The notes under the pieces are model-generated. The model made no database searches, was not told where the DNA came from, and saw nothing but the letters and a program-made list of their open reading frames with translations. Positions 4,018 to 23,622 of a stretch of 23,622 nucleotides of DNA are shown here, piece by piece; the first letter of the stretch is position 1; every line of letters starts with the position of its first letter. The DNA is taken from the IMG/VR virus record IMGVR_UViG_3300020186_000254, positions 1 through 23,622 of that record; one strand, given 5' to 3'. This DNA is from a virus. A program made the translations under genes and the position numbers.

Positions 4018-7000
4018 CTAACGCAGCGCTTCCTGCAACTCCTGCATCACGCGCTGCATGGTCGGCTTCAACTCACTGGCGCGCACCAGCCTGTTGTGGT
4101 CCTGTTCGTCCTTCAGTTCCTGCTTGGGCGTCGGGGTGCCGAATGCCTCCTCGCCAGCCCTACCGGCCCATGGTAGCCCAGTGGACGTCAGGGGCGAGAG
4201 CTTCTTCAGGGAGGCCACTGCCGGGTCCAAGAGGCCGATGTTCTTCAGGTTCTCCGGGTCGGTCTTCGCCTTCTTCTCATTCGCGATGCCCTGCTCGGCG
4301 AGCTTCCGCAGCGCGGGCGGGGCGCCAGCGGACAGGTCCCACGGCAAGCCGGGGATGAAGTAGCTCAACAGCGACAGGACCTGCGAGCGGCCCATCTCCT
4401 CGATGTGCGCGTCGAACTCCGGGTCGAACTCGCGACGGAGCGCGATGGATGCCTGCACGTCGAGGAGGCTGTACAGGAGGCCGCCGGTCCGGTGCCCGAA
4501 CGGGCGGGCGGCGAGGAACAGGGCCAGCTCCGGAAGGACTTTGCCGAACATGTAGGAGGCCGGGTACATGCCGAACATGGGGTGGTTGATGGAGCGCTCC
4601 AAGAAGGTGCGCTCCTGAGCGAAGTATTGCAGGCGGTGGGCATCGTCGAACTTGCGGGCGATGGAGGACATCGCGAGGTTCGCGACCTGCGCCTCGGTGA
4701 AGTTGTAGGGCACGGCACCGCCGGTGGGGAGGCCGCCAATCTCCTTCAGGAGCGGGCCGAAGATGCTGTCCTCGCCGCGCAGCAGGCCGTTGTTGACCAC
4801 GGCCTCGCTCCACTTCCCGAACATCCGAGCGGCGCGGGAGACGTCGGGGTTCGACTCGACGTGCTTGCTGCGGCCGACGAAGCGGTCCACGAACTCGTTA
4901 ATGTAGGGCTGGGGCAGGAGGCCCGCCTTCTGGGGGGCGTAGACCGTGCCGCGCTTGATGGCGTTGACCTCTCGGATGGTCTTGCCCGCCATCGGGTTCG
5001 GGGCGGAGGCGGCCTTCGGGACCCACTCGCCGCTGTCGCGCATGAACTGCTGCCACTCCTCGACAATCTCGCGCAGCTCGTCGCTCGCGATGTCGGCGAC
5101 CACGAGTTCCGGGTTGCTTGCGAAGGAGCCCAGCTCGGCCGCGAACTCCTGACTGTTCGTCATCCCGTACTCGGACAGGTCGAGGCGCCCGGTGGAGGAC
5201 TCAAAGCGAACCATCATCTCGTGGTAGGGCTCGTCGGCGGCAGAGCGCGCGACCTGCTCGTTGGAGGCATTGCGCGGGCGTCGCGAGATGTCGTACGCAT
5301 GGAAGCCCTCATGGCGGCTGACCTGAGCGATGTCGATAGTGCCCGCGTTATGGGGCGTGCCGACGTTCGACCGGCGCGGCATCCCGGTCTGGAGGCCGGT
5401 TGCCGGGTCCGTCTGCAGGAAGTGGCTCCACGAGCGCGTGAACTGGTTGCTGGCCTCCTTCGCGGCCCAGTCCGCGCTCTGGTCGTAGTGACGCAAGTTG
5501 AACAGGATGACGGACTCGTCGTCGTCCGCGCCCCACGTCAGGGCGATTGCGTCCTTGTGCTTGGTCTGGCCCAATCCGATGATGTCATCGACGCCCTCGT
5601 TGGCAAAGTTGAAGGGCGCCTCGAAGTCCACGACGTCAATGTGGTGAACGCGCATGCCCGGGAATTCGTCGAACAGGTCGGCGAGAGGCTGCAGGATGGC
5701 GGCCTGCATCTCGACCGGCAGGTCGCGGATGTTCTGTCCGACTCGGCGAGTGTACTCGTACACCATGTACTGCTCGCGGCCGAGGTAGTCCGTGCCCGAG
5801 AGCTGGATTTTGCCATTGCCATCGTCGAAGGGGACGTCGGGGTCAGGCGACGCGGACCCGGCGTCGTACGCGGCCTGCTGCCGCTCGGGCATGGCGAACG
5901 GGAAGCGGGCCTCGAAGTCGTCGGCCGGGTAGTCGGCGTCCAGCTCCTTGGGGACAAAGGTGTCGGTCGGCTGATAGATGTCGTCGCTGTAGTTGACGTA
6001 GGACGTATGGCCGTGCGTCTCGGTGAGCATCGCCGGTCGGCCCTCGTTCGAGAACATCCGGGCGTGCTTGGCGGCGGCGTTCAGCTCGCCGCGCGGCCCG
6101 AACTCAAAGCCCTCGGCCGCATGCCCGAAGACGTCATGGACGGCTCGGAACATGACGTTCTGCTCGTTCGTCATCAGGGGGTGGTCAGAGGCGCCGCCGA
6201 AGACCTTCAGGCGCCCGGCCTCCAAGTCCTTGACCATGGCGGCCCGGCCCGCTGCGTCGGCCGTGTACGGGTCCGTTCGCGTGACCGTGACCTTGATGCC
6301 CATGCCGCCCTTGTCCTTGGCTCTGGTCATGTAGTCGTACTGGTTGCTGGTGTCCACCATGAAGGACTGGTAGGACCGGTAGGTCGCATTGTCCACGCCA
6401 GCGGGCTGGGGCTTCAGGTCCGGGCCCGCCTTCTTCAGGCCGCCCGCGTTCGGGATGCGGCCCGTCTTCTCGTACTCGATGTCGGGCAGGTCGCGGAAGT
6501 GCGCGGCCCCCTCCTCGTAGTGGGCGTCCATGTCGGCGTCGTGCCTGAAGTGCGGGCGCCCGCCGAGCGGCTCGACGCCCATGTCGCGCATGTAGCGGGT
6601 GGAGGCATCGCGAGCGAAGGCCGAGCCGCTGGTGACGTCCAAGTCGTCGAACGGGTGGGACGGCGCCTTGCCGTCCATGTACCCGAGGATGCGGTCGGCG
6701 AGGGCCTCATCGCCGACCTCGTTCCACATCCGGTCGAGTTCGCCGAGGTCGAACTTCAGGTCCCCGTCGTTGACGGCCTTGACCAGCTCGGGATGGAACT
6801 CCTTCAGCAGGGCTCGCTTGGCGCTCGGGTCGAGGTGCGCGCTGAAGGTGCGGGCTAGCTGGCGAACGAGGTCCTCGCGGGTGCTGGTCCCCTCCTTGCC
6901 AGCGAGCTGGGTCCGCGTCTCGGCGAACTTGGCTTCGAGGGGCTTGACTCGGCGGCCAGCGGCGCGGGCCTCGCGGAGCAGGCGGACGGTACCCTCGATG

Positions 7001-10000
7001 TGTCCGAGGACGCCCTCGGTGCCGTCGATGAGGCTCGGGCTGAATATCTGGGACATGAACTCGACGGGAGTCACGTCTCGCAGCTTGGCGGCCTCGGCCA
7101 TCATGCGCTGCAGGGCGCGGGACTCTTCGCCGGTGAGGCTGAAGCGCTGGGCCGCCTGCCCCCAGAAGCCGTTCCACGAGAAGTTCAGGGCGTTCCGGGT
7201 GCGCCGGATGTAGTCGGGGTTGGCGCCCAGTTGCTTCAGGCTGGCCTCCACCTTGTCCATGACGCCGGGCTCGGTCACGAGCGCCTGACGCAGGTCGGCT
7301 AGGTTCTCGACGATGCTGCCGTCCGCCCGAACGATGCGCAGGCTCTCGGCCATATGGTCGAGGTCGAGCGAGCGCAGCTCTCCCATGTCGGTCGGGATGT
7401 AGTAGGCAGCGCCCTTTACGGTGTTCGCGAAGTTGACCTTGGGGCCGAACTTCCCGACGTTGTCCATGACCTTGCTGACGAAGATGTCGTTCGCGTACGC
7501 ATTCTCGGACACCATCTGGAGGGCGAAGTCGTCGTCGTTCAGAAGTCGCCCGAAGCGGGCCTCTGCGGCCTCCTTCATGCGCTGGTAGTCTCCGGGCCTG
7601 ACCTCGTCCCACGACTTCCTCAGCTCCTGCCCGAGCCCCTTGCGCATGGTGCGCAGCATGTTCAGTCGCTTCATGCCCTGCACGTCACCAAGCGCGTGTC
7701 CGACGCGGCGCAGAACATTCAGTTGCGTGCCCGGGGTGCGGGACAGTCGCCTCGTAGTGGAACTCCATAGAGCCGCCGGGCTGTACTCGAACGCCTCGAT
7801 GGAGTCAGAGTACCGGACGAGGCTGTGGGAGGTCATGGTGTCGAGCAGGCGGGCGGTCAGGCGGTCGCCCTCGTTCATGGTCGTGCTGGTCGCTACATCC
7901 ACGCCCCGGCCGATGCCGAGGAAGATGGGCTCCAGCTTCTCCTGAAACTGGAAGAGCGGGTTGTACCGGAACTTCATCGTGGGCCATGCGTGCTCGGCGA
8001 GCTGGCCCGCGAAGTTGTTCGTCCCGCCAAGGGAGAGCATCGTCTTCAGGCGGCCGGACAGCTTCTGCGTCAGCCCGATGTAGCGAATGTCGCCATCATA
8101 GGCGCGCAGCACGGTGTAGAGGATGTCTTCCGGGGACAGCGCGTTGTCCCCGGACAGGGCGGCGCGGGGGATGAGGTCGCCCTTCAGTAGCTCATCGTAC
8201 AGGTCGCCCTTGCCCATGCCCCTCGGGCCGCTGTAGCCCTGATGCGCTCGGGTGTACTCAGTCAGGCGCTCGAACCACGAGTTCGCCACCACCTCGGTCA
8301 CGCCACGGTCGCCGAACTCCTCGGTCGCCAGCATGGCGAACCGGGCGCGGGCGGTTTCAGTCACCATTGCGGAGCTGACCTGCAGCTTCATGATGCGGGC
8401 GGCCGAGTCCATGTGGTCAACCATCTTGGTCACGGCCCGCACGCCATACAGGTTCGGCAGGGGGTGTCCCATGATATTCGTGCGCAGGTAGTTGGCTGGC
8501 CTGTAGGCGCGAGCGCCGTCGGCGACGTGGTCCACCCACGCCGGGCCGGATGGTGAGTACAGGCCGGTCCCGTTGTCGCGCGACAGGCCCCACTTGAAGT
8601 GGTCCTCCGGCGCGAAGCCGAGGCTGTACTCACCTGCGACGGAGCGCAGGTCCTCGCCCTCCTTGCCGAGCGCCTTCAGCTCGGAGTTCTTCAACTGCAT
8701 CGGCAGTCGAGGCAGGTCCTCTTCGAGGGTCATGATGAAGCGGTCAACGGACCTTCCGAGGTCCTTCGGGTCGATGGCGATGTAGCGCAGGCTCTGGTAC
8801 TTCTCCTGCCATTCGGCAATGAGGCGGGCGCGCTGCTTGGTGCTCTTCATGGCGGTCAGCTTCGTGAGCAGGGACTCGCCGCCGATGCGCGTCAGGGTGC
8901 CCTTGGCGACGAGGATGATGCGGCTCGGGTGGACGGAGAACTTCGCCACGGCCTCTGCCGACAGGCCATCCGTCAGCTTGATGAGTTTCTTGTTGGCCTC
9001 TCCGTAGACGGCCAGCTTGTAGAATGACTTCTGTTCCTTCGAGAGCTTGGGCAGTAGCTCGACCCACTCCTCCTCGGTGAGCGTGTTGAAGGCGTGCGAG
9101 AGCTGACGAGCGAGCGTCGCGTGGTCAACCGCCGACCACTGCTGCTGAAGGACGTGCTTGACCGTGTTCAGTCGCAGCCACTTCTCCAAGTCGCGGTGCT
9201 TGGTGGACTGGACGGCGGCATCGAACAGGTCGGGGTCCCCCGGCAGCTTCGCCATCAGCTCCTCCCCTAGCTTCCCGGCGATTTGATTGCGGCGGAACAT
9301 GTCGATGACGCCGTTCCGGGCATGGTTCGCCACGGCGACGCCGATAGCCTCGGTGAACCGGGTGGTCATACCGCCCGTGGGGTCCTGTCGGAGAGTCTCG
9401 TTGAGAATGCCCTTGTAGTGGTGGACGCCGAGCGTGTCGGCCACGTTGCGCATGACGCTGTCGGAGTAGATGTCCGCCATGCGGGCCGAACCCGGCATGC
9501 TCAGGTCGAGGGCGTGAAACGGGTCGATGATGGTCCGCGCGACCTTAGAGGCCTTGCCGAGGCTCGTCCCTTCGAGCGCGCCGTACGCCCTGCCGAATGG
9601 CTTGAACATGCTGGCAACTGCCTCGCTGCCCTCGGCCGCTCGGGCCACCACGTTGAGGCGCTTGATGCCGGTGCCCGTGGAGTGGTACTGCTTCGCGGCA
9701 TCGACGGCCCGCTGGGCGGTCAGCACGTCGGCCTCCGCGACCTTCAGGGCCTTGCGGGCGGTGGACAGGTTCTCTGCTCCGACGCCGCCGACGCGGGCGG
9801 CCTTGACCGCAATCTCGGCCGCCTCGTACGTCTTGCCGACCCTCACGAGCGTGGCGTTGGTCGTCGCAGCCAGCTTGACGATGCGGGAGCCCGTGCTGCC
9901 CAGCTTGGCGGCGACCCCCGCGCCGAGAGTAGCGATGTTGATGGGGTCCAGCAGGACCTCGCCGAGCAGGTTCCCGATGGCCCCGTGGTCGTACGCCTGA

Positions 10001-11004
10001 CCCGTGTTCGCGAGGAAGTCGGCCGCTTGGTCACGGGTCCAGTCGCCACTCTTCATCTTCTCGTAGACGAGCTGCTCCGTCGTATTCAGACCCGTGGTCG
10101 GGTCGCCAGCCAGCAGGCCCGTCCCGAGCAGGCCCTTGTCCTCGGCGTAGGCGGCGTCCCCGTCGCCGACCTCCGTGATGTAGTCAATGCGGTCCGTGCC
10201 CTTGCCGGGCGAGAGGTCGTCGAGCTGCGCCCAGTGCTTCGAGATGATGCGCGGGCTCGACTCGAAGACGTCGATGAAGAGCTGGACTTGGTCGGACAGC
10301 GAGCCCGGGGCCGTGAAGGCCCCCGGGTTCAGGGTCGGGTCGGAGTAGGCCGCCTCCTTCGCCCAAGCGCGGACGAAGAGGTTCTTCATATGGAGGTCGT
10401 CGTCGAGGATGCCCGTTCCGAACAGGCCGTGCTCGCGGTCGATTGCGGCCTGCGTGTCAGCCAGAAGGGCCTGTCCGTTCGCCGTCTTGGACGCCTCGGC
10501 CACGGCGGCGGCGTATTGCTCCTCCAAGAGCGAGGCCGTTGTTGCGGACGGCAGGCGCTCGACGAGTCCGCCGACGGCGGCTGCTGCTCCGCCGATGACC
10601 TCGCCTGCGCCACCGAGTCCATCCGCGATGAGGCCGAGCGGACCCTCCAGAGCGGCGAGCGGGCCCGCCTGCGCGAGCAGGCTTGCGCGGCGGGTGGCCT
10701 CTGCGGCCGGACCCTCGTCGCCGCTCCCGATGGTGGCCTGACGCAGGCCGTTCATGATGGTGCTGATGGGGTCCGACTCGACCGTGGCGATGGGGTCCAA
10801 CAGGCTGATGTTGACCGTTCCGACGGTGGCGTTCGGGTCGGTGGCGGGAGGCGGCGGCTCGGGCGCACCTGACGGGGTCGGAGACCACGTGGCGGGGGAG
10901 ACACCCCCGGTGGGCACCCCGGAACCCGTGTTCGAGAACTGGCGGCCGTCAGTGGGCCCGGAGAGTGCTGGCGATGCCTTGAAGCGCTCGCTCCATGCGC
11001 TCAT
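4018..11004 (-). CDS. Giant 2328-aa multidomain virion/polyvalent protein with HExxH metallopeptidase motif
   Basis: This single open frame fills almost 7 kb between the 877-aa gene and the scaffold gene. Its ATG overlaps the upstream stop as ATGA. Residues 1-60 are Pro/Ser/Gly-rich. A Gly/Ala-rich amphipathic stretch follows at about 115-150, then L-L-D-P-I-N-I-A-T-L-G-A-G near 350, a pattern seen in large phage ejected proteins. The middle is mostly helical. At 1617-1672 there is a conserved-looking domain with V-H-D-V-F-G-H (H1623 to H1628) and E-T-H-G-H. At 1898-1902 is H-E-G-F-H, the HExxH zinc metallopeptidase signature, followed by Q-E-F-A-A-E (E1953 or E1957 as a possible third ligand). 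This make-up matches phage polyvalent proteins thought to enter the host with DNA. Position argues for a capsid-internal or portal-proximal protein rather than a tape measure. No RNA polymerase motifs were seen. Exact role unknown. Confidence 0.8.
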   Translation of the reverse strand: MSAWSERFKASPALSGPTDGRQFSNTGSGVPTGGVSPATWSPTPSGAPEPPPPATDPNATVGTVNISLLDPIATVESDPISTIMNGLRQATIGSGDEGPAAEATRRASLLAQAGPLAALEGPLGLIADGLGGAGEVIGGAAAAVGGLVERLPSATTASLLEEQYAAAVAEASKTANGQALLADTQAAIDREHGLFGTGILDDDLHMKNLFVRAWAKEAAYSDPTLNPGAFTAPGSLSDQVQLFIDVFESSPRIISKHWAQLDDLSPGKGTDRIDYITEVGDGDAAYAEDKGLLGTGLLAGDPTTGLNTTEQLVYEKMKSGDWTRDQAADFLANTGQAYDHGAIGNLLGEVLLDPINIATLGAGVAAKLGSTGSRIVKLAATTNATLVRVGKTYEAAEIAVKAARVGGVGAENLSTARKALKVAEADVLTAQRAVDAAKQYHSTGTGIKRLNVVARAAEGSEAVASMFKPFGRAYGALEGTSLGKASKVARTIIDPFHALDLSMPGSARMADIYSDSVMRNVADTLGVHHYKGILNETLRQDPTGGMTTRFTEAIGVAVANHARNGVIDMFRRNQIAGKLGEELMAKLPGDPDLFDAAVQSTKHRDLEKWLRLNTVKHVLQQQWSAVDHATLARQLSHAFNTLTEEEWVELLPKLSKEQKSFYKLAVYGEANKKLIKLTDGLSAEAVAKFSVHPSRIILVAKGTLTRIGGESLLTKLTAMKSTKQRARLIAEWQEKYQSLRYIAIDPKDLGRSVDRFIMTLEEDLPRLPMQLKNSELKALGKEGEDLRSVAGEYSLGFAPEDHFKWGLSRDNGTGLYSPSGPAWVDHVADGARAYRPANYLRTNIMGHPLPNLYGVRAVTKMVDHMDSAARIMKLQVSSAMVTETARARFAMLATEEFGDRGVTEVVANSWFERLTEYTRAHQGYSGPRGMGKGDLYDELLKGDLIPRAALSGDNALSPEDILYTVLRAYDGDIRYIGLTQKLSGRLKTMLSLGGTNNFAGQLAEHAWPTMKFRYNPLFQFQEKLEPIFLGIGRGVDVATSTTMNEGDRLTARLLDTMTSHSLVRYSDSIEAFEYSPAALWSSTTRRLSRTPGTQLNVLRRVGHALGDVQGMKRLNMLRTMRKGLGQELRKSWDEVRPGDYQRMKEAAEARFGRLLNDDDFALQMVSENAYANDIFVSKVMDNVGKFGPKVNFANTVKGAAYYIPTDMGELRSLDLDHMAESLRIVRADGSIVENLADLRQALVTEPGVMDKVEASLKQLGANPDYIRRTRNALNFSWNGFWGQAAQRFSLTGEESRALQRMMAEAAKLRDVTPVEFMSQIFSPSLIDGTEGVLGHIEGTVRLLREARAAGRRVKPLEAKFAETRTQLAGKEGTSTREDLVRQLARTFSAHLDPSAKRALLKEFHPELVKAVNDGDLKFDLGELDRMWNEVGDEALADRILGYMDGKAPSHPFDDLDVTSGSAFARDASTRYMRDMGVEPLGGRPHFRHDADMDAHYEEGAAHFRDLPDIEYEKTGRIPNAGGLKKAGPDLKPQPAGVDNATYRSYQSFMVDTSNQYDYMTRAKDKGGMGIKVTVTRTDPYTADAAGRAAMVKDLEAGRLKVFGGASDHPLMTNEQNVMFRAVHDVFGHAAEGFEFGPRGELNAAAKHARMFSNEGRPAMLTETHGHTSYVNYSDDIYQPTDTFVPKELDADYPADDFEARFPFAMPERQQAAYDAGSASPDPDVPFDDGNGKIQLSGTDYLGREQYMVYEYTRRVGQNIRDLPVEMQAAILQPLADLFDEFPGMRVHHIDVVDFEAPFNFANEGVDDIIGLGQTKHKDAIALTWGADDDESVILFNLRHYDQSADWAAKEASNQFTRSWSHFLQTDPATGLQTGMPRRSNVGTPHNAGTIDIAQVSRHEGFHAYDISRRPRNASNEQVARSAADEPYHEMMVRFESSTGRLDLSEYGMTNSQEFAAELGSFASNPELVVADIASDELREIVEEWQQFMRDSGEWVPKAASAPNPMAGKTIREVNAIKRGTVYAPQKAGLLPQPYINEFVDRFVGRSKHVESNPDVSRAARMFGKWSEAVVNNGLLRGEDSIFGPLLKEIGGLPTGGAVPYNFTEAQVANLAMSSIARKFDDAHRLQYFAQERTFLERSINHPMFGMYPASYMFGKVLPELALFLAARPFGHRTGGLLYSLLDVQASIALRREFDPEFDAHIEEMGRSQVLSLLSYFIPGLPWDLSAGAPPALRKLAEQGIANEKKAKTDPENLKNIGLLDPAVASLKKLSPLTSTGLPWAGRAGEEAFGTPTPKQELKDEQDHNRLVRASELKPTMQRVMQELQEALR

Positions 11005-17216: not shown

Positions 17217-17707
17217 GTTGGCGTTTCGCCAACTTCAGCCGCTTCGCCCTCGATGGTGCGTCCGTCGTCCAGCTCGGGCGGCGGAGCGGACTCGTTGAGT
17301 CGGGCCAGCCATATCTGCAGCGAGAGGGCGCCTGCGGCGATGCCGAGCTTCTTGTTGACGGCCTCGCGCTTGTCGAGCATGGCCTGTGCCTTCAGTCCGG
17401 CGTTCAGGGAGGGCCCCAGCTCGGCGCCCATGAGCATCAGGCCCTCCCCGGGCATGTCCGTGATGGCCTCGACGACCTTATCGCGGACCATGATGGCGAG
17501 GTCCCGCTGTGTGGGTGTCGGCGCGTCGGGATTGACCGGCTTCGACCAGTGCCCGGCCTTGTGGCGCGCCACCACGTCGGGGTCGAGGCTGCCACCCATG
17601 GCATCGACGCCCGCAGAGACGGCCCGGTTGCTCAAACCCTTATTCAGGGCGGCGTCAACGTAGTCTCGGAGGGCGGGGACCCCGCAGATGCGGCACCTAA
17701 CTGCCAA
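17213..17707 (-). CDS. Probable terminase small subunit / DNA-binding packaging protein
   Basis: A 164-aa protein encoded immediately upstream of the large terminase, with a 4-base overlap. The start is a TTG at 17707 with GAGGGAG six bases upstream, overlapping the previous gene by 11 bases. The N-terminus has C-R-I-C-G (C5 and C8, only one Cys pair), then a helix-turn-helix-like stretch with A-L-N-K-G-L-S-N-R-A-V-S. This resembles how small terminases recognise packaging sites: a Cys motif or HTH followed by helical oligomerisation segments. The rest is helical, including L-N-A-G-L-K-A-Q-A-M-L-D-K-R-E-A, with an acidic C-terminus. Function comes mainly from position and architecture; I see no diagnostic signature. 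Confidence 0.7.
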   Translation of the reverse strand: MAVRCRICGVPALRDYVDAALNKGLSNRAVSAGVDAMGGSLDPDVVARHKAGHWSKPVNPDAPTPTQRDLAIMVRDKVVEAITDMPGEGLMLMGAELGPSLNAGLKAQAMLDKREAVNKKLGIAAGALSLQIWLARLNESAPPPELDDGRTIEGEAAEVGETPT

Positions 17708-18119
17708 GTGGGGCTCCCTCGTTCAGAATGGTGGTCACGCGCCCCTCGCGTAGGTCGCTGGGCTTGATGATGATGGCATAGTTTCCTGTCGAGTTTAGCA
17801 AACGGAGCCAGAGCCACTGCTCGTCGTCTACGACGCCCTCTTCGCGCTTCAGCTCGATGAAGATGAGGCGATGGCCCTCCTTCGCGAGGGTCAGGTCGGG
17901 CCATCCGGGGCTCATGGGCGTGATGAACTGGCCCGTACCGGCCTCGCGGTCGCCGACCCACGCCCTACCGGCGTGCGCGACCTTCCAGTTGCGCCTCTTC
18001 GCGCGTCCGACGACGCGGTCCTGCAGGGTCTTCTCGCTCATGGTGCGGTCGAGACACTGGTCGGCCGTGATGGTGCGGTGCCGGACGCCGCAATGGGGGC
18101 ACTGCTCTCGCTCGCTCAC
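17697..18119 (-). CDS. VRR-NUC domain nuclease (PD-(D/E)XK fold)
   Basis: A 140-aa protein with the VRR-NUC signature: G72-W-P-D75-L-T-L, then I-F-I-E89-L-K91, then D-D-E-Q-W-L-W-L-R-L-L. These give the D, E-x-K and Q residues of the PD-(D/E)XK core. The N-terminal extension has C-P-H-C-G-V-R-H (C7, C10, H14), a possible small zinc knuckle absent from minimal versions. Stand-alone VRR-NUC proteins are common in phages near replication genes and are thought to process branched or structured DNA. Here it lies between the replicative helicase and terminase genes, so it could resolve replication intermediates before packaging. The GTG at 18119 overlaps the helicase stop as GTGA. The family call is firm; the substrate is inferred. 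Confidence 0.88.
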   Translation of the reverse strand: MSEREQCPHCGVRHRTITADQCLDRTMSEKTLQDRVVGRAKRRNWKVAHAGRAWVGDREAGTGQFITPMSPGWPDLTLAKEGHRLIFIELKREEGVVDDEQWLWLRLLNSTGNYAIIIKPSDLREGRVTTILNEGAPLGS

Positions 18120-19576
18120 GGGTTCTCGTCCTCGTCGGCTTCCTGCTCGGCCAGAGCCATGGCGCCAAGCAGCGCAAAGCCCTCCCAGCGCATGCCGAAC
18201 TTGGTCTTCTTCTTCAGGAAGCCCTTCTTCTGCAGGGTGGCGGCCCAGCGGACGGTGCTGAGGACCTCACCGGGTGCGCTGGAGGTGGAGTGCCACTCCG
18301 CGTAGGACTCGTACGCCACCTGCGACGGGGAACCGGCGCCGGACTCGCGTCGGCAGCGCTCGTTGAGCCAGTTCGCGACCGGGTCGTTGCGCTCCATGAA
18401 GTCCTTCGACTGCTCGACGACGCGCTCGGGCAGGATGAGGCCGCCGCTACTGGCCTCCCAGCGCTGGTACCAGATGCTGGCGGCCCAAACGAGGATGGAG
18501 AGGATGCCAGAGGCCTCCTTCTGCAGCGCGCCGTACAGGCGCCGGTCCTGCCGGTCGCCCTCGTAGGACTCGCGGAAGTCGGCCACCATGACGCGCTCGC
18601 CCATGGACGGGCCGACGTCCTCGACGGCGGGCATGTTGTTGGTCAGGAAGTTGATGCTATGGGTCGGGTCCCAGCTCTGGATGTTGTTCGAGTACAGGGC
18701 TCTGGCGCTGATGCGGTCCTGCCCCGTGTGCGCCTTCAGCAGCTCCTCGTTGAACTGCCCGCCCGAGGGCTCCGAGAAGAACGTGATGCGCATTCCCTTC
18801 AGCTTGATGAGGTCGGCCCGGGCCTCGTTCGAGCGGGCACCGCCGAACTTGCTCCGCATGTACAGGCTCGCGTCCAGCTCCTCCGAGTAGTCGCCCGTCG
18901 CCTTCAGGACGGCGTGCTTCAGCGCGCCCTTCCCGTTCCGGCCGATGCCGGTCATGAGCAGGAAGCGCTGCTCGGGGCTGAAGCCGAACATGCTCGCCCC
19001 GAACCAGAACAGGAGCCACGCCACCATGTCCTCGTCGCCCGACATCCACTCCTTCATGGAGGTCATAAAGCGGGGAGCCACGCGCTCGAAGTCGTCAGGT
19101 CCGGCGATGGCCTCGAAGGGGCGACCGGTGGTCTTGGTGATGTTCTGCTCGGGAGAGGCCGGGATGAGCCGGTTCTCGCGAAGGTCCACGACCCCGTTCT
19201 TCACGCCCAGCAGGAACGGGTCCGAGTCCCACTCGTCGCCGTTCGTCCCGTAGCCCGGGATTGTCGCAAGCGCCTTCAGGACGCGCTCCTGTGTCGGCCA
19301 CTGCATCAGCGAGAACAGGCGCTTCTGCTCCTCGCCACCGATGCCGTAGGACTTCAGCGTCTGGCTAGCCACCTTGTGGATTTGGAGGTGGACGGCGTTG
19401 GTCTGGTCGGGCGCCCACCGGGAGCCGTTGAAGTGCAGCCACTTGCCCGTTGTGTGGTCGAAGCGCCACTTCAGTTGGAGGCGCTGGGCCAGCCACTCGG
19501 CCTGCCGGTAGTCCTCGGGCCCGATGCCTGTCGATGACTCTTCCTTCGGCTCTTCGTCGAACTCCTCCTCAGACAT
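18116..19576 (-). CDS. Phage primase-helicase, D5/P4-type (SF3 helicase)
   Basis: From the ATG at 19576 this encodes 486 aa. The upstream in-frame extension is Arg/Ser-rich shadow sequence, and the ATG has GGAGGT just before it, so I chose the shorter form. Residues about 110-165 form a D5_N-like region (F-L-L-G-V-K-N-G-V-V-D-L-R). The SF3 ATPase has a Walker A at 210-218 (G-I-G-R-N-G-K-G-A), a Walker B-like M-R-I-T-F-F-S-E-P with E269, a sensor motif I-N-F-L-T-N-N-M-P (308-316), and R328 in G-E-R-V as a possible arginine finger. A C-terminal winged-helix region is likely. It should unwind DNA as a hexamer at the fork, working with the primase-polymerase encoded just upstream, with which it overlaps by 8 bases. 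Confidence 0.92.
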   Translation of the reverse strand: MSEEEFDEEPKEESSTGIGPEDYRQAEWLAQRLQLKWRFDHTTGKWLHFNGSRWAPDQTNAVHLQIHKVASQTLKSYGIGGEEQKRLFSLMQWPTQERVLKALATIPGYGTNGDEWDSDPFLLGVKNGVVDLRENRLIPASPEQNITKTTGRPFEAIAGPDDFERVAPRFMTSMKEWMSGDEDMVAWLLFWFGASMFGFSPEQRFLLMTGIGRNGKGALKHAVLKATGDYSEELDASLYMRSKFGGARSNEARADLIKLKGMRITFFSEPSGGQFNEELLKAHTGQDRISARALYSNNIQSWDPTHSINFLTNNMPAVEDVGPSMGERVMVADFRESYEGDRQDRRLYGALQKEASGILSILVWAASIWYQRWEASSGGLILPERVVEQSKDFMERNDPVANWLNERCRRESGAGSPSQVAYESYAEWHSTSSAPGEVLSTVRWAATLQKKGFLKKKTKFGMRWEGFALLGAMALAEQEADEDENP

Positions 19577-20492
19577 TGGACCTCCGTGCCGACCTGATGG
19601 TGCGCTTGACCTCGACCTTGTCGAGCCCGGCGGCGAGCGCCACCTCCGCAAGGCGCTCGAACTCCTCGTCGCTGCCGCCCTCTTCATTCAGGGTAGCCGC
19701 CGCCCAGTGCAGGTAGTTGTTCCGGTTCCCGCCCTCGGCCTTCGCCATGCCATCGACCAGTGCGTCGTGGTTCGCCTGAGCGAAGAAGGTCTTGTCGCCC
19801 TCGACGTACTTGGGACCCCATGCGTGGCGACGGATGTCGCGGGCGTCCAGTTTGCCCTTCAGGTCGAAGACATGGTTTTCGATGCGCTCTCGCAGCGGCT
19901 CTGGCACCTCCTTCGGAGGCACCGTCGCGCTCGGCGCAATGAGCCACTTGTACGTGCCGCCGTCCGGGTGGCGGCTCGGCGGGACGGCGACGTAGCCGCC
20001 CTGCCCCTTCAGGTCGAGCTTCGGCCCGAGCTTGATGGTACCCGTGGGCTGGGACGAGCCGAACCAGAGGTGCAGTCCTCGCCCGGTCTGGGCGACCCAC
20101 GTCAGCGTGTCCCCGACCAGCTCCTCGGCCAGCAGCTCCGGACCGAGCAGGTCGCCCCACTGGTCGGCCCCGTCCGGCCCGTCGATGTCAACGACCACGT
20201 ACGGGTAGGAGATGACGATGGCGATGCCGGTCGTATCCGGGTGCTCGAAGACGTCGCGCAGGACGCCCTCGATATCGGCCGGGTCGGGTGCGCCGGACAG
20301 GGCCTGATGGAGCCCGGCCTTGTGGACCCGGACGTTCGGAGTCTTACCGGTAAGCGCGATGACACTCAGGCCGAGGTTGAGATATTCGACTGCGGCCTCA
20401 ACCAATGGGTTGAGGGCGGTCACCGGACGGTGCCCGGATACAGGAGGCGCTGGTGGCTCTCGCAGCGACGGAAGCCACTGCGGTGCCACCAA
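19569..20492 (-). CDS. Primase-polymerase (Prim-Pol / AEP-type bifunctional DNA primase/polymerase)
   Basis: A protein of about 307 aa with the archaeo-eukaryotic primase signatures: V-V-V-D102-I-D104-G (metal-binding acidic pair), Q-T-G-R-G-L-H141-L-W-F (nucleotide-binding histidine), and K-G-Q-G-G-Y-V-A-V-P-P-S173 followed by H-P-D-G-G-T-Y. It synthesises primers and may also extend DNA. The start is uncertain: TTG at 20492 or GTG at 20489, both weak for ribosome binding. It overlaps the helicase gene by 8 bases, giving the frequent Prim-Pol plus D5-helicase pair. No separate replicative polymerase is found in the window, so this enzyme may carry more of the synthesis, unless one is encoded elsewhere. 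Confidence 0.9.
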   Translation of the reverse strand: MVAPQWLPSLREPPAPPVSGHRPVTALNPLVEAAVEYLNLGLSVIALTGKTPNVRVHKAGLHQALSGAPDPADIEGVLRDVFEHPDTTGIAIVISYPYVVVDIDGPDGADQWGDLLGPELLAEELVGDTLTWVAQTGRGLHLWFGSSQPTGTIKLGPKLDLKGQGGYVAVPPSRHPDGGTYKWLIAPSATVPPKEVPEPLRERIENHVFDLKGKLDARDIRRHAWGPKYVEGDKTFFAQANHDALVDGMAKAEGGNRNNYLHWAAATLNEEGGSDEEFERLAEVALAAGLDKVEVKRTIRSARRSNV

Positions 20493-20532
20493 GGGAACCA
20501 GCGGGGGCTGTCGCAGTTGGGGCGAGAGCAGC

Positions 20533-21177
20533 TCACCGGTGACGGCCCTCGCTCACGTCGGCCACGCCTCCGCCCGGGTTCCATACGCTGGGCGCCCGCA
20601 GGTAGCCCCGGTCGAGCATGGACCGTCGCAGGTGGGAGTGAGCGTGGACGTCGGATAGCACGCGCCGCCGGGTCAGCTCGATGCCGCGCGGGGTCAGGCG
20701 GTTGGCCTCTCGCCACGAGGTCTGGCTCATGTGGAACTTCTCCAAGGGGATGCCCAGCTCGCACTTCGGCTTCAGCGTGTCGATGAGGAACTCCTGCGTC
20801 GCGGGCAGGTCCGCCTTCTTGAACAGGTCGAGCTTCGTGTCGCACGAGAGCTTGGCCTTCATGAGGGGGAGGTCCAGCTCGTAGAGCATGGCGTTCGTGA
20901 TGGGCAGGTCGTGGCGCCGGATGTAGTGCCCGGTCACCATGTCGGCCTCGTTGTAGCGCTCGATGAAGCGGCCGAGCATGGCTCGCTCGTCATCCTCGGT
21001 GCTGTCCGGCAGGAGCATGTAGTCCACGCGCAGGCTGTCGTGGTCGCCCACCCACATCGAGGCGATGGACGTAATCTGCGCGGTCGGCATGTCGGGCACC
21101 CAGTAGGTGAGTGGCCGGTTCTCGATGTCCCAGTCGAGGATGCGCAGGTCGCGGGCGGGGGCGTTGAGGGCGCTCAC
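20533..21177 (-). CDS. Stand-alone 3'-5' exonuclease, family-B-polymerase/DnaQ-like
   Basis: A 214-aa protein. It has Exo I as L-D-W-D17-I-E19-N, Exo II as V-T-G-H-Y-I-R-R-H-D90-L-P, and Exo III as V-L-S-D176-V-H-A-H180-S-H-L. These are the motifs of the RNase H-like proofreading domain in family B DNA polymerases, yet no polymerase domain follows: the frame stops after 38 more residues and the Prim-Pol gene begins 40 bases later. It may proofread for the Prim-Pol or trim DNA ends. The GTG at 21177 overlaps the preceding stop as GTGA. It could be the remnant of a split polymerase, but all catalytic acidic residues are present, so I regard it as active. Family call strong, role inferred. Confidence 0.88.
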   Translation of the reverse strand: MSALNAPARDLRILDWDIENRPLTYWVPDMPTAQITSIASMWVGDHDSLRVDYMLLPDSTEDDERAMLGRFIERYNEADMVTGHYIRRHDLPITNAMLYELDLPLMKAKLSCDTKLDLFKKADLPATQEFLIDTLKPKCELGIPLEKFHMSQTSWREANRLTPRGIELTRRRVLSDVHAHSHLRRSMLDRGYLRAPSVWNPGGGVADVSEGRHR

Positions 21178-21377
21178 CGGTCGCCCGACACGAACTCCGC
21201 GAGGAGCTGGGAGACCTGCGGGAGCTGGCCGTCCTGCACGGACTTATTGAACGCGTTCTCCACCTGCGGGAGGACCTCGTTCAGCTCGGCGTCGGCCGCG
21301 AGGCTGTGGCGCAGGCGGACCATGGAGCGGGCCGCCTTCAGGAGCGCGGCCTTCCGCATGGCGATGTCGTCTTTCAT
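21174..21377 (-). CDS. Small helical protein, 67 aa, unknown function
   Basis: The protein begins MKDDIAMRKAALLKAARSMV and is predicted to be two or three helices (basic N-terminal helix, then A-A-D-A-E-L-N-E-V-L, then V-S-Q-L-L-A-E-F-V). No catalytic motif or membrane segment is seen. The ATG at 21377 overlaps the upstream stop (ATGA) with GAGGAA just upstream, and its end overlaps the exonuclease start, so it is a true operon member. Small helical proteins in this position are often accessory replication proteins or dimerising adaptors, but I cannot assign a role. Confidence 0.7.
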   Translation of the reverse strand: MKDDIAMRKAALLKAARSMVRLRHSLAADAELNEVLPQVENAFNKSVQDGQLPQVSQLLAEFVSGDR

Positions 21378-21631
21378 TGGGTTCCTCGCTGGACAGCTTT
21401 GTGGCGGACATCGGTCAGGATGCCCCTAGCAGTGCCACGGTACTTGTGGACCGCTCGTAGGTGGGACTCGCGGCGGCACGGGAGGCAGCGGCCGTCCCAC
21501 GTCATGCCGGTCAGGGCGAGACAATGTCGCCCGGACCGGCAGATGCGGTGTGGTTGCAGGCCGGGAGTTGCACCCTGCTCTCTGGGGTATGAGCCCTGTG
21601 TGGTCGCTCCGACCACCTGCCTGCCTTGCAC
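21374..21631 (-). CDS. Small Cys/His-rich protein, possible zinc ribbon
   Basis: An 85-aa basic protein with I-C31-R-S-G-R-H36-C37, then W-D-G-R-C49-L-P-C52. This spacing suggests a single zinc-binding ribbon or treble-clef-like knuckle. Short phage proteins of this style, with a C-x-x-G-H start and a G-R-C-x-x-C end, are frequent in replication or nuclease-like modules; there is no full HNH catalytic set, so nuclease activity is not claimed. The GTG at 21631 overlaps the stop of the hairpin-domain gene (TAGTG), and the end overlaps the next gene by four bases. Nucleic-acid binding is the simplest guess. Confidence 0.65.
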   Translation of the reverse strand: MQGRQVVGATTQGSYPREQGATPGLQPHRICRSGRHCLALTGMTWDGRCLPCRRESHLRAVHKYRGTARGILTDVRHKAVQRGTQ

Positions 21632-21858
21632 TAGCCTAGCTCATGGGAGGATGGGTCCCGGGCGATGGCGGCGTGTGCCCAGAACGTAGCCTCCTCGAAG
21701 GCGGTGAAGGCGAGCGCCTTCTCCCGGCCTTCGGGCAGCTGCTGAAGCCCGTGGATGGCGAAGAGCTTTGACTGAATCCGGAGGTCCGTATGCAGACGCT
21801 GTGCCGGGCCTGCTGGGGCGTGATAGTCGAACCGGCGCTCAATCTCGGCGTACTCCAT
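21631..21858 (-). CDS. Acb2/Tad1-type hairpin-domain protein, predicted cyclic-nucleotide sponge (anti-CBASS/anti-Thoeris type)
   Basis: This 75-aa protein starts at the ATG at 21858, which overlaps the upstream TAA (TAATG). It shows the pattern of the Acb2/Tad1 hairpin domain: E-R-R-F10-D-Y12-H-A-P near the N-terminus, a long helix, then R45-E-K-A-L-A-F-T-x-F-E55-E-A-T-F-W60-A-H-A-A-I-A-R67 in the second helix. Known Acb2 proteins from other phages form oligomers that bind cyclic di- and trinucleotides and so block CBASS; related Tad1 sequesters Thoeris signals. Length fits (Acb2 is under 100 aa). It sits inside a replication operon between a possible ssDNA-binding-type gene and a Cys/His gene, so it would be made early in infection. 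Position 62 is His where I would expect Asn in the usual W-A-N-A pattern. Family match is by pattern memory; ligand unknown. Confidence 0.82.
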   Translation of the reverse strand: MEYAEIERRFDYHAPAGPAQRLHTDLRIQSKLFAIHGLQQLPEGREKALAFTAFEEATFWAHAAIARDPSSHELG

Positions 21859-22316
21859 TACTTGCTCGCGGCGGCCCGGGCCTTGCGGGCCGGGATGACG
21901 TTCCCGATGCCGGGCCAGCCATTCTCCTTGACGAAGACCTCGACCTGCACCTTGCGGCCGATGAGCGCGTCCTCGTCCACGCCCTCGCCTGCCTCGAACT
22001 TGGCGAACTCCGGACCGGTCTGCAGGGCCTTCAGAACGCGGACCTCCTGCGGGACGGTCTTGCTGGCGATGTTGAAGCCCGTGCCCGTGAGCTTCGTCAG
22101 CTCGATGGGGTCGCCCTCGTCGAACAGCTCGTTGCCCTCGTCGTCGAGGAGCGTGAACTTCCATTCGAGCTTCAGGTCACCTTTCTCGGTGTCCTTGATG
22201 TAGAGCCCGCCCTTGACGCGCTTGCTCTCGGTTCCGTCGAAGCGGGCGTCGTACATGCCCTCTTCGACGTTGGGGGCCTCGGCGGCCTTGCTGGTGGCGG
22301 TAAACGTGGTGCCCAT
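21858..22316 (-). CDS. Early phage protein, possible single-stranded DNA-binding type (beta-rich), first gene of leftward operon
   Basis: A 152-aa protein with beta-strand alternation: V-E-E-G-M-Y-D-A-R-F-D-G, then L-K-L-E-W-K-F-T-L-L-D-D-E-G-N-E-L, then R-K-V-Q-V-E-V-F-V-K-E-N-G. The C-terminus is Ala/Lys-rich. It resembles small phage replication-associated proteins with an OB-like build, but I cannot name a family with confidence. An ATG lies at 22316 with GGAGGG (22324-22329) seven bases upstream; in-frame Met codons further upstream are poorly placed and rejected. It is the first gene after the control region, and its stop overlaps the Acb2-like start. A role in binding ssDNA at the fork fits its neighbours but is inference. 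Confidence 0.75.
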   Translation of the reverse strand: MGTTFTATSKAAEAPNVEEGMYDARFDGTESKRVKGGLYIKDTEKGDLKLEWKFTLLDDEGNELFDEGDPIELTKLTGTGFNIASKTVPQEVRVLKALQTGPEFAKFEAGEGVDEDALIGRKVQVEVFVKENGWPGIGNVIPARKARAAASK

Positions 22317-22362
22317 GTGGGAACCCTCCGTACTGCGCAGCCCATCTGACTGCGACCCATTC

Positions 22363-22371
22363 ATTGTAGCC
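22363..22371 (-). promoter_or_regulatory. Candidate -10 element for the leftward operon
   Basis: The minus strand reads GGC-TACAAT with the hexamer at 22363-22368, giving a transcript start near 22356 and a leader of about 40 bases before the ATG at 22316. No convincing -35 is seen at 16-18 bases upstream. It overlaps the left arm of a perfect 10-bp inverted repeat (22366-22375), so a bound regulator would cover this promoter. Confidence 0.4.
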
Positions 22372-22424
22372 CGATGCCCCGACACCCACGTGGTTCGCTG
22401 TGGGGCGTAGGTCAATCGGGCTAC
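22366..22424. repeat. Perfect 10-bp inverted repeat flanking 39 bp, possible operator pair
   Basis: GTAGCCCGAT at 22366-22375 and its reverse complement ATCGGGCTAC at 22415-22424. The arm centres are 49 bases apart, close to a whole number of helical turns (between four and five). The left arm overlaps the candidate -10 for the leftward operon. Two such sites could bind a dimer pair and loop the promoter. Confidence 0.5.
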
Positions 22425-22431
22425 GTCGAGA

Positions 22432-22440
22432 ACTGTAGCA
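22432..22440 (-). promoter_or_regulatory. Second candidate extended -10 element, leftward
   Basis: The minus strand reads TGC-TACAGT (hexamer 22432-22437), an extended -10 form. The best upstream hexamer at 17 bases is CGAACA, a weak -35. It lies about 115 bases before the first gene of the leftward operon and could be an alternative start. Confidence 0.3.
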
Positions 22441-22508
22441 GACGACCCGTCCCTTGTTCGCGAATGTTACGCAGGCCGTCACATTGACGCGGTCCACAGC
22501 TTGCGGAC

Positions 22509-22569
22509 CGGCTCGCCGACCACGAGGTCATGATGTCCTCGTGGTTTCCCCGACGGCTCGCCGACCACG
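22509..22569. repeat. 16-bp direct repeat with an included 9-bp stem-loop
   Basis: CGGCTCGCCGACCACG occurs at 22509-22524 and 22554-22569, 45 bases apart. Between and partly inside the first copy, ACCACGAGG (22519-22527) pairs with CCTCGTGGT (22537-22545) around a nine-base loop. On the plus strand it is followed by TTCCCC, not a clear U-run. It could be a terminator-like barrier, operator or origin element. Confidence 0.5.
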
Positions 22570-22619
22570 GCCGGGCCGATTGGCGGGGCGAGGTCCTGAG
22601 AGCGAGGTGCGCGGTGCAC

Positions 22620-22737
22620 GGTGCAGGGTTGTGAAGGGTTTGCTGGGTACTACGGAAAAGCCCCTATACGAGTTCAATCTAGTAGGTCTTGGTGTAACCC
22701 TGCAATCCCTTCACCCTGAGCGTGCTAACCCTGCACC
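22620..22737. repeat. Composite inverted and direct repeat cluster, possible origin/iteron-like element
   Basis: GGTGCAGGGTT (22620-22630) pairs with AACCCTGCACC (22727-22737), perfect over 11 bases. The adjoining GTGAAGGG (22631-22638) pairs with CCCTTCAC-type sequence at 22707-22714. TAACCCTGCA is also repeated directly at 22695-22704 and 22726-22735, a 31-base period (about three helical turns). The same word set is thus used in both orientations, as in initiator-binding iterons. Confidence 0.5.
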
Positions 22738-22950
22738 CGATGCTCCAAACGGGAAGGGGACCTTTCGTTTCGGGCTCTGGGCGGCCCCTTTCCCCCCGGT
22801 GGTGGTCGTCCGCTGAATGGGGCCCCGGTAGTACCTATCAGAGAGGCTCCGGCATGTCCACAGCCACAGCCCGGAGCACGCAATGACGGGGGTACCGGGG
22901 TGCCACCGTGACTGTTCCGAACTGCGCGCGCCCGCGCACAGGGACCGCAC

Positions 22951-22964
22951 GCGCAGCACTGCGC
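22951..22964. promoter_or_regulatory. Candidate operator, dyad copy 1 (GCGCAG-CA-CTGCGC)
   Basis: A perfect 6+6 dyad with a two-base centre. It is one of three copies with identical arms in the divergent region; the others lie at 23059-23072 and 23396-23409. A degenerate copy, with only the right arm intact, lies near 22914-22927. Confidence 0.5.
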
Positions 22965-23058
22965 ACGCCGTCCCCCTGCCCACCCTCAGGCAGTTAGTTG
23001 CATGGTTGCACATAACTAGGCCGACCTGATGGACATGCCATGCTGCGCTGCCCATGGC

Positions 23059-23072
23059 GCGCAGAACTGCGC
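23059..23072. promoter_or_regulatory. Candidate operator, dyad copy 2 (GCGCAG-AA-CTGCGC)
   Basis: Same arms as copy 1, with AA at the centre. It overlaps a 24-bp near-perfect palindrome (23065-23088) whose core is GCCCCATGGGGC, with one mismatched pair. Two different overlapping dyads could allow competition between two DNA-binding proteins. Confidence 0.5.
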
Positions 23073-23088
23073 CCCATGGGGCACAGTT
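23065..23088. repeat. 24-bp near-perfect palindrome
   Basis: Arms AACTG and CAGTT flank the perfect core GCCCCATGGGGC at 23071-23082, with a single C/A mismatched pair between arm and core (23070 and 23083). It overlaps dyad copy 2. It is long enough to be a strong protein-binding site. Confidence 0.5.
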
Positions 23089-23123
23089 GGAGGAGGACAG
23101 GTCGCCAAGGGGTCGCATCACGC

Positions 23124-23229
23124 GCCCACAGGCGTCTTTCCAGACGCAGGCACGAGGCTGGAACCGATTGCAGCGCTGCGGCGATGGGTTCCGGAAACGT
23201 TTCCTCGCGCCCACAGGCGCCCACAGGCG
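23124..23229. repeat. Three 11-mers GCCCACAGGCG
   Basis: Copies lie at 23124-23134, 23209-23219 and 23219-23229; the last two share one base and are effectively tandem. The longer word CGCGCCCACAGGCG is common to the first two. They lie between the palindromes of the control region and resemble short iterons or protein-binding boxes. Confidence 0.45.
23193..23204. repeat. Perfect 12-bp palindrome GGAAACGTTTCC
   Basis: An unusually A/T-bearing palindrome in an otherwise very GC-rich stretch, immediately before the tandem GCCCACAGGCG copies. It could be an operator. Chance cannot be excluded. Confidence 0.4.
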
Positions 23230-23258
23230 TGGCAGGATTGACGCGGGCACGAGGTTTG

Positions 23259-23272
23259 CCCCTTGCAAGGGG
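23259..23272. repeat. Perfect 14-bp palindrome CCCCTTGCAAGGGG
   Basis: A symmetrical site with no spacer, downstream of the GCCCACAGGCG boxes. It could bind a dimeric regulator or form a cruciform. No adjacent promoter is evident. Confidence 0.4.
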
Positions 23273-23395
23273 TTCGGTCTGGTGGGGTCTGGTGTGGTCG
23301 CCGAGCCGAGCCGAGCCTCGCGCGCGCTCCGACTTCGTCGGCAGATTGTGCCGAAAACAGGGCCTGCCGCCAACGGTGCGACCCCGTGTCACGGC

Positions 23396-23409
23396 GCGCA
23401 GTTCTGCGC
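23396..23409. promoter_or_regulatory. Candidate operator, dyad copy 3 (GCGCAG-TT-CTGCGC)
   Basis: Third copy of the GCGCAG-NN-CTGCGC dyad; its TT centre makes it the exact reverse complement of copy 2. The dyad extends by one base on each side (23395-23410). It lies about 125 bases upstream of the rightward gene, so one regulator could act on both divergent units. Confidence 0.5.
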
Positions 23410-23480
23410 GTGGTGTCGAGGCGCGCGCGTAACGACGGAGTCGTCGCGAGTGCGCGCGCCGTTGGAGCCAGATTGGTGAA

Positions 23481-23509
23481 GCCGAACAGCCCCAAACGGG
23501 GCAGTCGGC
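23481..23509 (+). promoter_or_regulatory. 5' leader stem-loop of the rightward gene
   Basis: GCCGA (23481-23485) pairs with TCGGC (23505-23509), and GCCCC (23489-23493) with GGGGC (23498-23502) around a four-base loop. The result is one two-part hairpin with a small internal bulge. It ends ten bases before the ribosome binding site, so it would stand in the transcript leader of the gene at 23533. It may protect the mRNA end or act in attenuation. Confidence 0.45.
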
Positions 23510-23532
23510 AGACAGCTCGAAGGAGTCAGACG

Positions 23533-23622
23533 ATGACAGCTCGACGCAACAAGGCAGTTCTCCCCGGCCTCTCCCGCAGTATCAAGTGCCAGAGGTCTGC
23601 CAAGTGCCAGAGGCTCGACGGC
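23533..23622 (+). CDS. Partial CDS: N-terminus of a rightward gene, function unknown
   Basis: Thirty codons are visible from the ATG at 23533, with no stop before the window edge. A strong ribosome binding site, GAAGGAG (23519-23525), stands seven bases upstream. The protein begins MTARRNKAVLPGLSRSIK and then has C-Q-R-S-A-K-C-Q-R-L-D-G, where K-C-Q-R occurs twice, encoded by a 13-base repeat (23583-23595 and 23601-23613). The segment is basic with two Cys. It is the only plus-strand gene I accept, marking the divergent rightward unit. I cannot assign a function from this fragment. Confidence 0.7.
   Translation, partial: MTARRNKAVLPGLSRSIKCQRSAKCQRLDG

Follow-up and report, generated by a model that had tools for sequence, protein, structure and literature searches.

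Gene organization of the locus

The window analyzed here spans the whole of an IMG/VR virus record (23,622 bases). A gene encoding a 75-aa protein, P0001, lies on its minus strand, and the features of the surrounding region are as follows.

21858..22316, minus strand: upstream gene, OB-fold ssDNA-binding-type protein, 152 aa (from an AF2 model), with a TAATG overlap with the acb2-like gene
21631..21858, minus strand: acb2-like gene (P0001), short-form Acb2/Tad1 hairpin protein, 75 aa (PF24729, PHROG 1454, 9ptq, and AF2)
21374..21631, minus strand: downstream ORF with four Cys, 85 aa, with a TAGTG overlap; coding status doubtful
21174..21377, minus strand: small ORF, 67 aa, normal codon composition
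20533..21177, minus strand: exonuclease-type protein, 214 aa (PHROG 403, "DNA polymerase exonuclease subunit"; E = 1.1e-9)
19569..20492, minus strand: Prim-Pol primase/polymerase (PF09250; E = 3.6e-21)
18116..19687, minus strand: D5-type primase/helicase (PF08706, E = 9.5e-17; PHROG 1156, E = 1.4e-70)
17697..18119, minus strand: VRR-NUC nuclease (PF08774; E = 2.4e-5)

Read from position 21858 down to 21631, the protein is MEYAEIERRFDYHAPAGPAQRLHTDLRIQSKLFAIHGLQQLPEGREKALAFTAFEEATFWAHAAIARDPSSHELG (75 aa), and stop codons interrupt the plus strand of the same interval. The gene is real. The interval 21631-21858 reported in the initial annotation was confirmed, with minus as its strand, and the motifs quoted from the protein, including His at residue 62, are all present in the translation. 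Both gene overlaps described there were also found in the sequence, i.e., TAATG at 21858 with the upstream gene and TAGTG at 21631 with the next ORF. The proposed setting in a replication operon agrees with the gene order: an OB-fold gene is located upstream, and the exonuclease, Prim-Pol, D5 helicase, and VRR nuclease genes are located downstream, with the terminase and portal genes coming after this block.

No sequence family was found for the 152-aa upstream protein. Its AF2 model (pLDDT of 61) matches PrgE of plasmid pCF10 (E = 6e-4, probability = 1.00), an OB-fold ssDNA-binding protein, and also the RPA core (probability = 0.75); the earlier label of this gene as "ssDNA-binding type" is therefore reasonable. 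Homologs of the gene are located upstream of acb2 in two related contigs, L001 and L002. The downstream ORF at 21374-21631 had been described as a Cys/His gene joined by the TAGTG overlap; the overlap is present, but the coding status is doubtful because the family search gave no match and the codon-position composition is atypical, with G+C contents of 69/59/71% at the three positions compared with 85-96% at the third position of the surrounding replication and terminase genes. The ORF is possibly spurious.

A search of positions 20400-23622 for sigma-70-type promoters found none. In the apparently noncoding end upstream of the operon (22933-23427), a palindrome-like element, GCGCAGNNCTGCGC, occurs in three spaced copies, which are possibly an origin or operator. 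Elsewhere in the window, positions 4018-11004, or 30% of the record, encode a protein of 2,328 aa in which a single stretch matches a phage family (PHROG 3170, function unknown). A homolog of this protein is also present in the contig L033, which is described below.

Family assignment and predicted fold

The initial annotation proposed a search with an Acb2/Tad1 hairpin-domain profile, and the curated profile PF24729 gave a significant match to the 75-aa protein, with 43.9 bits, well above its curated cut-off of 27 (E = 2.8e-11). The alignment covers residues 12-67 of the protein and positions 2-58 of the 58 in the profile. PHROG 1454 matches with an E value of 3.6e-19, and the two results together place the family match far beyond chance. 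In a second scan, the PF24729 model gave 71.4 bits for the verified Acb2 of phage T4, and the family call thus links P0001 to a sponge with experimental verification; two actinophage homologs scored 59 and 64 bits. The best match among solved structures is 9ptq ("Acb2 homolog 43"), with an E value of 0.0038 from the single sequence and 8.2e-9 with a four-sequence profile, in a gapless alignment of residues 10-66 (57 columns). When nine sequences were used for the profile, Tad1 also matched weakly in the segment where 9ptq had aligned.

PADLOC and NCBIfam gave nothing for the protein, and tblastn run with it directly against phage records gave no match; the homolog L007 bridged the search to 166 phage records. 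At the DNA level, nothing was found for the window in phage records, and a scan for the sponge across bacterial and archaeal genomes found none. By sequence, we assign the protein as a new member of the Acb2/Tad1 family, of a known kind and in a short form; those members of the family that have been assayed sequester cyclic-nucleotide alarm signals of bacterial anti-phage defence; we regard such homology as proof of the domain family only and not of a function.

The AF2 model of the single chain (pLDDT of 87.9) contains helices at residues 3-11, 20-36, and 45-67 and no strands, so that the predicted architecture consists of a short N-terminal helix and two long antiparallel helices with nothing else. 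Structure prediction had been suggested as a further check, and for the single chain it yielded the two-helix hairpin with this additional short helix. The Acb2 protomer has likewise been described as a short helix plus two long helices (PMC10419184). The hairpin is approximately 20 residues shorter than those of the T4 and Pseudomonas phage proteins and equal in length to that of 9ptq, and P0001 is thus a short form; what had been called a divergent first helix is simply this short-hairpin form. Foldseek searches against viral models retrieved Acb2/Tad1 hairpin proteins with probabilities of up to 1.00 and weak E values (0.03), and the matches among solved structures (PDB) included no Acb2 entry and nothing meaningful. 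Weak Foldseek results are to be expected when the query is a helical monomer of 75 aa, yet they are no positive proof. Taken with the residue correspondence described below, the curated profile, the solved-structure relative, the predicted fold, and the gene order bear out the original description of an Acb2/Tad1-type hairpin protein within a replication operon.

Residues of the putative ligand sites

Residues were counted over 21 compared homologous sequences, and the codons of the positions considered are as follows.

21823..21825, minus strand: Tyr12 (PF24729 column 2, residue 12 of P0001, residue 8 of T4 Acb2)
21778..21780, minus strand: Arg27, proposed phosphate contact (spacing read from the sequences)
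21724..21726, minus strand: Arg45, start of R-x6-T, proposed cyclic-trinucleotide site (Arg in 20/21)
21703..21705, minus strand: Thr52, end of R-x6-T (Thr in 20/21; also T68 of T4 Acb2 and in Tad1)
21673..21675, minus strand: His62, the residue singled out by the initial annotation

The counterpart of Tyr12 in the Pseudomonas phage Acb2 is Tyr11 by alignment, and the Y8A mutation of T4 Acb2 disrupts cyclic-dinucleotide binding (PMC12657218). Position 12 is variable across the compared family (Y, S, H, W, V, F, and P). Arg27 is located 15 residues past Tyr12, as Lys26 is past Tyr11 in the Pseudomonas phage protein and Lys23 past Tyr8 in that of T4, and Arg occupies this position in 16 of the 21 sequences. 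Lys26 of the Pseudomonas phage Acb2 presumably contacts phosphates, and Arg27 in place of the Lys of the known members is a conservative change, although the substitution counts against the sponge reading proposed below. The R-x6-T motif (R45/T52) is common to P0001, the Pseudomonas phage Acb2, and Tad1, whereas T4 Acb2 has the Thr without the Arg. We take the corresponding pair in the Pseudomonas phage Acb2 (R67/T74) to belong to the trinucleotide site and to contact the ligand. Reviews describe a salt bridge to the phosphates and a Tad1-like trinucleotide site at the trimer interface, in which the residues are not named (PMC12043709, PMC10419184).

His62 had been read as a sign of a different ligand preference at a position where Asn would be expected. 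The expectation holds to the extent that Asn is usual in the actinophage proteins that we looked at and in Tad1; however, His is a common alternative, with His in 8, Asn in 8, Lys in 4, and Met in 1 of the 21 sequences, and His62 by itself therefore indicates no other ligand. The aligned residue is Cys in T4 Acb2 and Thr in 9ptq. It is quite improbable, in our judgment, that the His-type short-form subfamily (P0001, L001, L002, L003, L007, L008, L011, and L012) has moved to a signalling nucleotide outside the range of the known Acb2 and Tad1 proteins; if true, such a shift would suggest that the hosts of these environmental phages use a CBASS-like signal yet to be described.

Presence and absence among relatives

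Seven IMG/VR contigs were compared (L001, L002, and L028-L032), all of which share the OB-fold, Prim-Pol, and D5 genes. In each of them, the OB-fold gene also has a small helix-turn-helix gene on its downstream side. In L028, L030, L031, and L032, the helix-turn-helix gene starts within a few bases of the OB-fold stop codon, i.e., the site is empty, and a search across these four loci found no hairpin protein anywhere. In L002, acb2 is located exactly at this site, and in L001, the same slot holds acb2 and one further small gene. The slot of L029 contains a divergent hairpin protein with 24.6 bits, just under the cut-off of 27, and a PHROG 1454 match with an E value of 3.4e-6. This protein (L029:1016-1228) is without Tyr at position 12 and keeps R-x6-T, a possible change in specificity.

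The closest relative found is L033, with identities of 65% for the terminase, 61% for the portal, and 50% for the OB-fold gene product; no acb2 was found within the 13.6 kb examined of its 16.3 kb. L033 (SHYV01000112.1) is a contig listed as part of a Myxococcales MAG from the depths of Lake Baikal, and its replication module differs in that an AAA_25/PriCT protein and an endonuclease VII replace Prim-Pol, D5, and VRR. It was the one contig retrieved when bacterial and archaeal genomes were scanned with the terminase, and a search of 50,697 phage records gave no terminase homolog. The MAG label is too weak an indication to name Myxococcales as the host, as phage contigs are often mis-binned.

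The four empty sites and the absence of the gene from the examined part of L033 indicate that acb2 has been gained or lost while the replication genes stayed. The acb2-like gene is an accessory cassette, with a probable role in counter-defence, and not a core replication part. That it is accessory is what the relatives newly reveal, and the finding adds an uncultured phage lineage, with no similar terminase in those phage records, to the carriers of Acb2-type sponges. Phages with and without acb2 at one slot also provide a clean natural comparison and fit the idea that sponges come and go as add-ons beside replication genes. Such a pattern is expected if sponges bring both a benefit, in the form of escape from CBASS, and a cost, in that Panoptes-type systems are triggered by them. 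Sponge activity can indeed also trigger Panoptes defence (PMC12657218), and a cost of this type would fit the patchy presence of acb2.

Selection on the acb2-like gene

Of the proteins compared between the window and L001/L002, that encoded by acb2 is the best conserved, with 61-68% identity, compared with 27-54% for the other shared proteins (OB-fold, 27-33%; Prim-Pol, 31-34%; D5, 36-39%; VRR, 47-52%; terminase, 37-39%). Its fourfold sites differ at 60-69%, a saturation at least that of D5, and dN/dS is approximately 0.22-0.35, a rough value given the 75 codons and near-saturated silent sites. As the gene is the best conserved despite saturated silent sites, acb2 is under purifying selection. 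The same saturation rules out recent transfer as the cause of the high conservation, which thus reflects an old constraint. The third-position G+C content of acb2 is 79%, below that of its neighbours.

Proposed function and alternative explanations

We consider it likely that the protein is an accessory, short-form Acb2-type sponge that binds cyclic oligonucleotide signals during replication, and the most likely mechanism would be the sequestration of CBASS-type cyclic oligonucleotides in early infection. For P0001, we infer the hexamer, the binding, the ligands, the timing, and the target system. The gene would probably be cotranscribed early with the ssDNA-binding and replication genes, and its product, which is predicted to fold as a two-helix hairpin with a short N-terminal helix, may assemble as a hexamer as its relatives suggest. 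It would then bind cyclic oligonucleotide alarm signals without cutting them, holding cyclic dinucleotides in pockets via Tyr12 and Arg27 and cyclic trinucleotides at the trimer interface via Arg45 and Thr52. As a result, CBASS effectors would stay off while the phage DNA is copied, and type III CRISPR effectors that share cA3 would perhaps also be kept off. CBASS is blocked by Acb2 proteins, in which dinucleotides and trinucleotides occupy distinct sites (PMC12043709). The initial annotation had gone further and derived a host range that includes bacteria with CBASS, Thoeris, or related defence; the present data, however, support no statement about the host or the defences that it carries.

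A narrower version of the sponge reading, possible although on the unlikely side, is that only the R45/T52 site works and that the protein sequesters cyclic trinucleotides (cA3 and cAAG) without a functional dinucleotide pocket. The near-invariance of R45 and T52 while position 12 varies is in line with this version, as is the reported difference in ligand range among Acb2 homologs (PMC12043709), but in P0001, Tyr12 is retained and is followed by a basic residue at the same distance as Lys26 in the Pseudomonas phage protein. Retention of these nucleotide-binding positions also argues against a role in replication or recombination, in which the protein would be a small partner of the ssDNA-binding protein next to it, with no more than the hairpin fold in common with the sponges. 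The overlap of acb2 with the OB-fold gene inside the replication block, the adjoining OB-fold-type genes in L001 and L002, and an SSB gene nearby in phage StellaBean would suit such a partner; it is nevertheless improbable, as related phages without acb2 keep the ssDNA-binding, Prim-Pol, D5, and VRR genes and the verified T4 homolog sits in another setting.

Binding of gcADPR by a Tad1-like anti-Thoeris sponge is a much weaker candidate that we regard as very improbable: the R-x6-T..EEA..W hairpin segment and the joint Pfam domain are common with Tad1, but the N-terminal β-sheet domain around the gcADPR pocket of Tad1 is absent and the 75-aa model is entirely helical, which makes the Thoeris activity suggested earlier unlikely. 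We give almost no credence to a decayed or nonfunctional Acb2 remnant. The sub-cut-off version in the same slot of L029 and the lowered third-position G+C content of acb2 might be read as decay, whereas the frame of P0001 is intact, all of the family-invariant residues are kept, and the low dN/dS is obtained with saturated silent sites. The preferred reading remains that of an accessory Acb2-type sponge.

Comparison with known systems

The solved homolog 9ptq is a short hairpin of identical length that shares the PEGREKS...T..EEA.F core with P0001, and its entry contains six chains, as for a hexamer; it differs in having Thr at position 12, Lys at 27, and Thr at 62, which are Tyr, Arg, and His in P0001. 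T4 Acb2 (Vs.4; PDB 7uq2) belongs to PF24729 like P0001, at approximately 23% identity; its gene setting differs from the replication block described here. The T4 and Pseudomonas phage (8h2j and 8ixz) proteins share with P0001 the base-stacking Tyr, a basic residue 15 positions later, and the arrangement of one short and two long helices, whereas the additional residues of their longer hairpins lie between the basic residue and the Thr.

Short-form proteins with a core similar to that of P0001 are found in the actinobacteriophages StellaBean (gp101) and Jasmine (gp9) and in Statler (gp57). The StellaBean protein is annotated as a "cyclic nucleotide sequestering protein," and Statler gp57 is labelled a putative Acb2 in its own paper. 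The actinobacteriophage Acb2-like proteins are approximately 39-43% identical to P0001, and position 62 is Asn in those of StellaBean and Jasmine. Directly after gp9 of Arthrobacter phage Jasmine, gp10 (L025:4192-4419) is a weak second hairpin-like protein (E = 0.001) and possibly a tandem duplicate of gp9. In L012 and L013 (3518-4573 in each), an Acb2/Tad1 hairpin domain (37.6 bits) occurs within one 351-aa open frame, after a likely membrane-spanning segment and ahead of a Pro/Ala-rich tail; the start codon is provisional, and the protein is possibly a membrane-anchored sponge.

Tad1 consists of an N-terminal β-sheet domain beside C-terminal helices (PMC12043709). Its C-terminal hairpin carries R-x6-T and EEA..W, as P0001 does; however, the extra N-terminal domain, which helps form the gcADPR pocket, is absent from the all-helical P0001, and P0001 is therefore not a Tad1.
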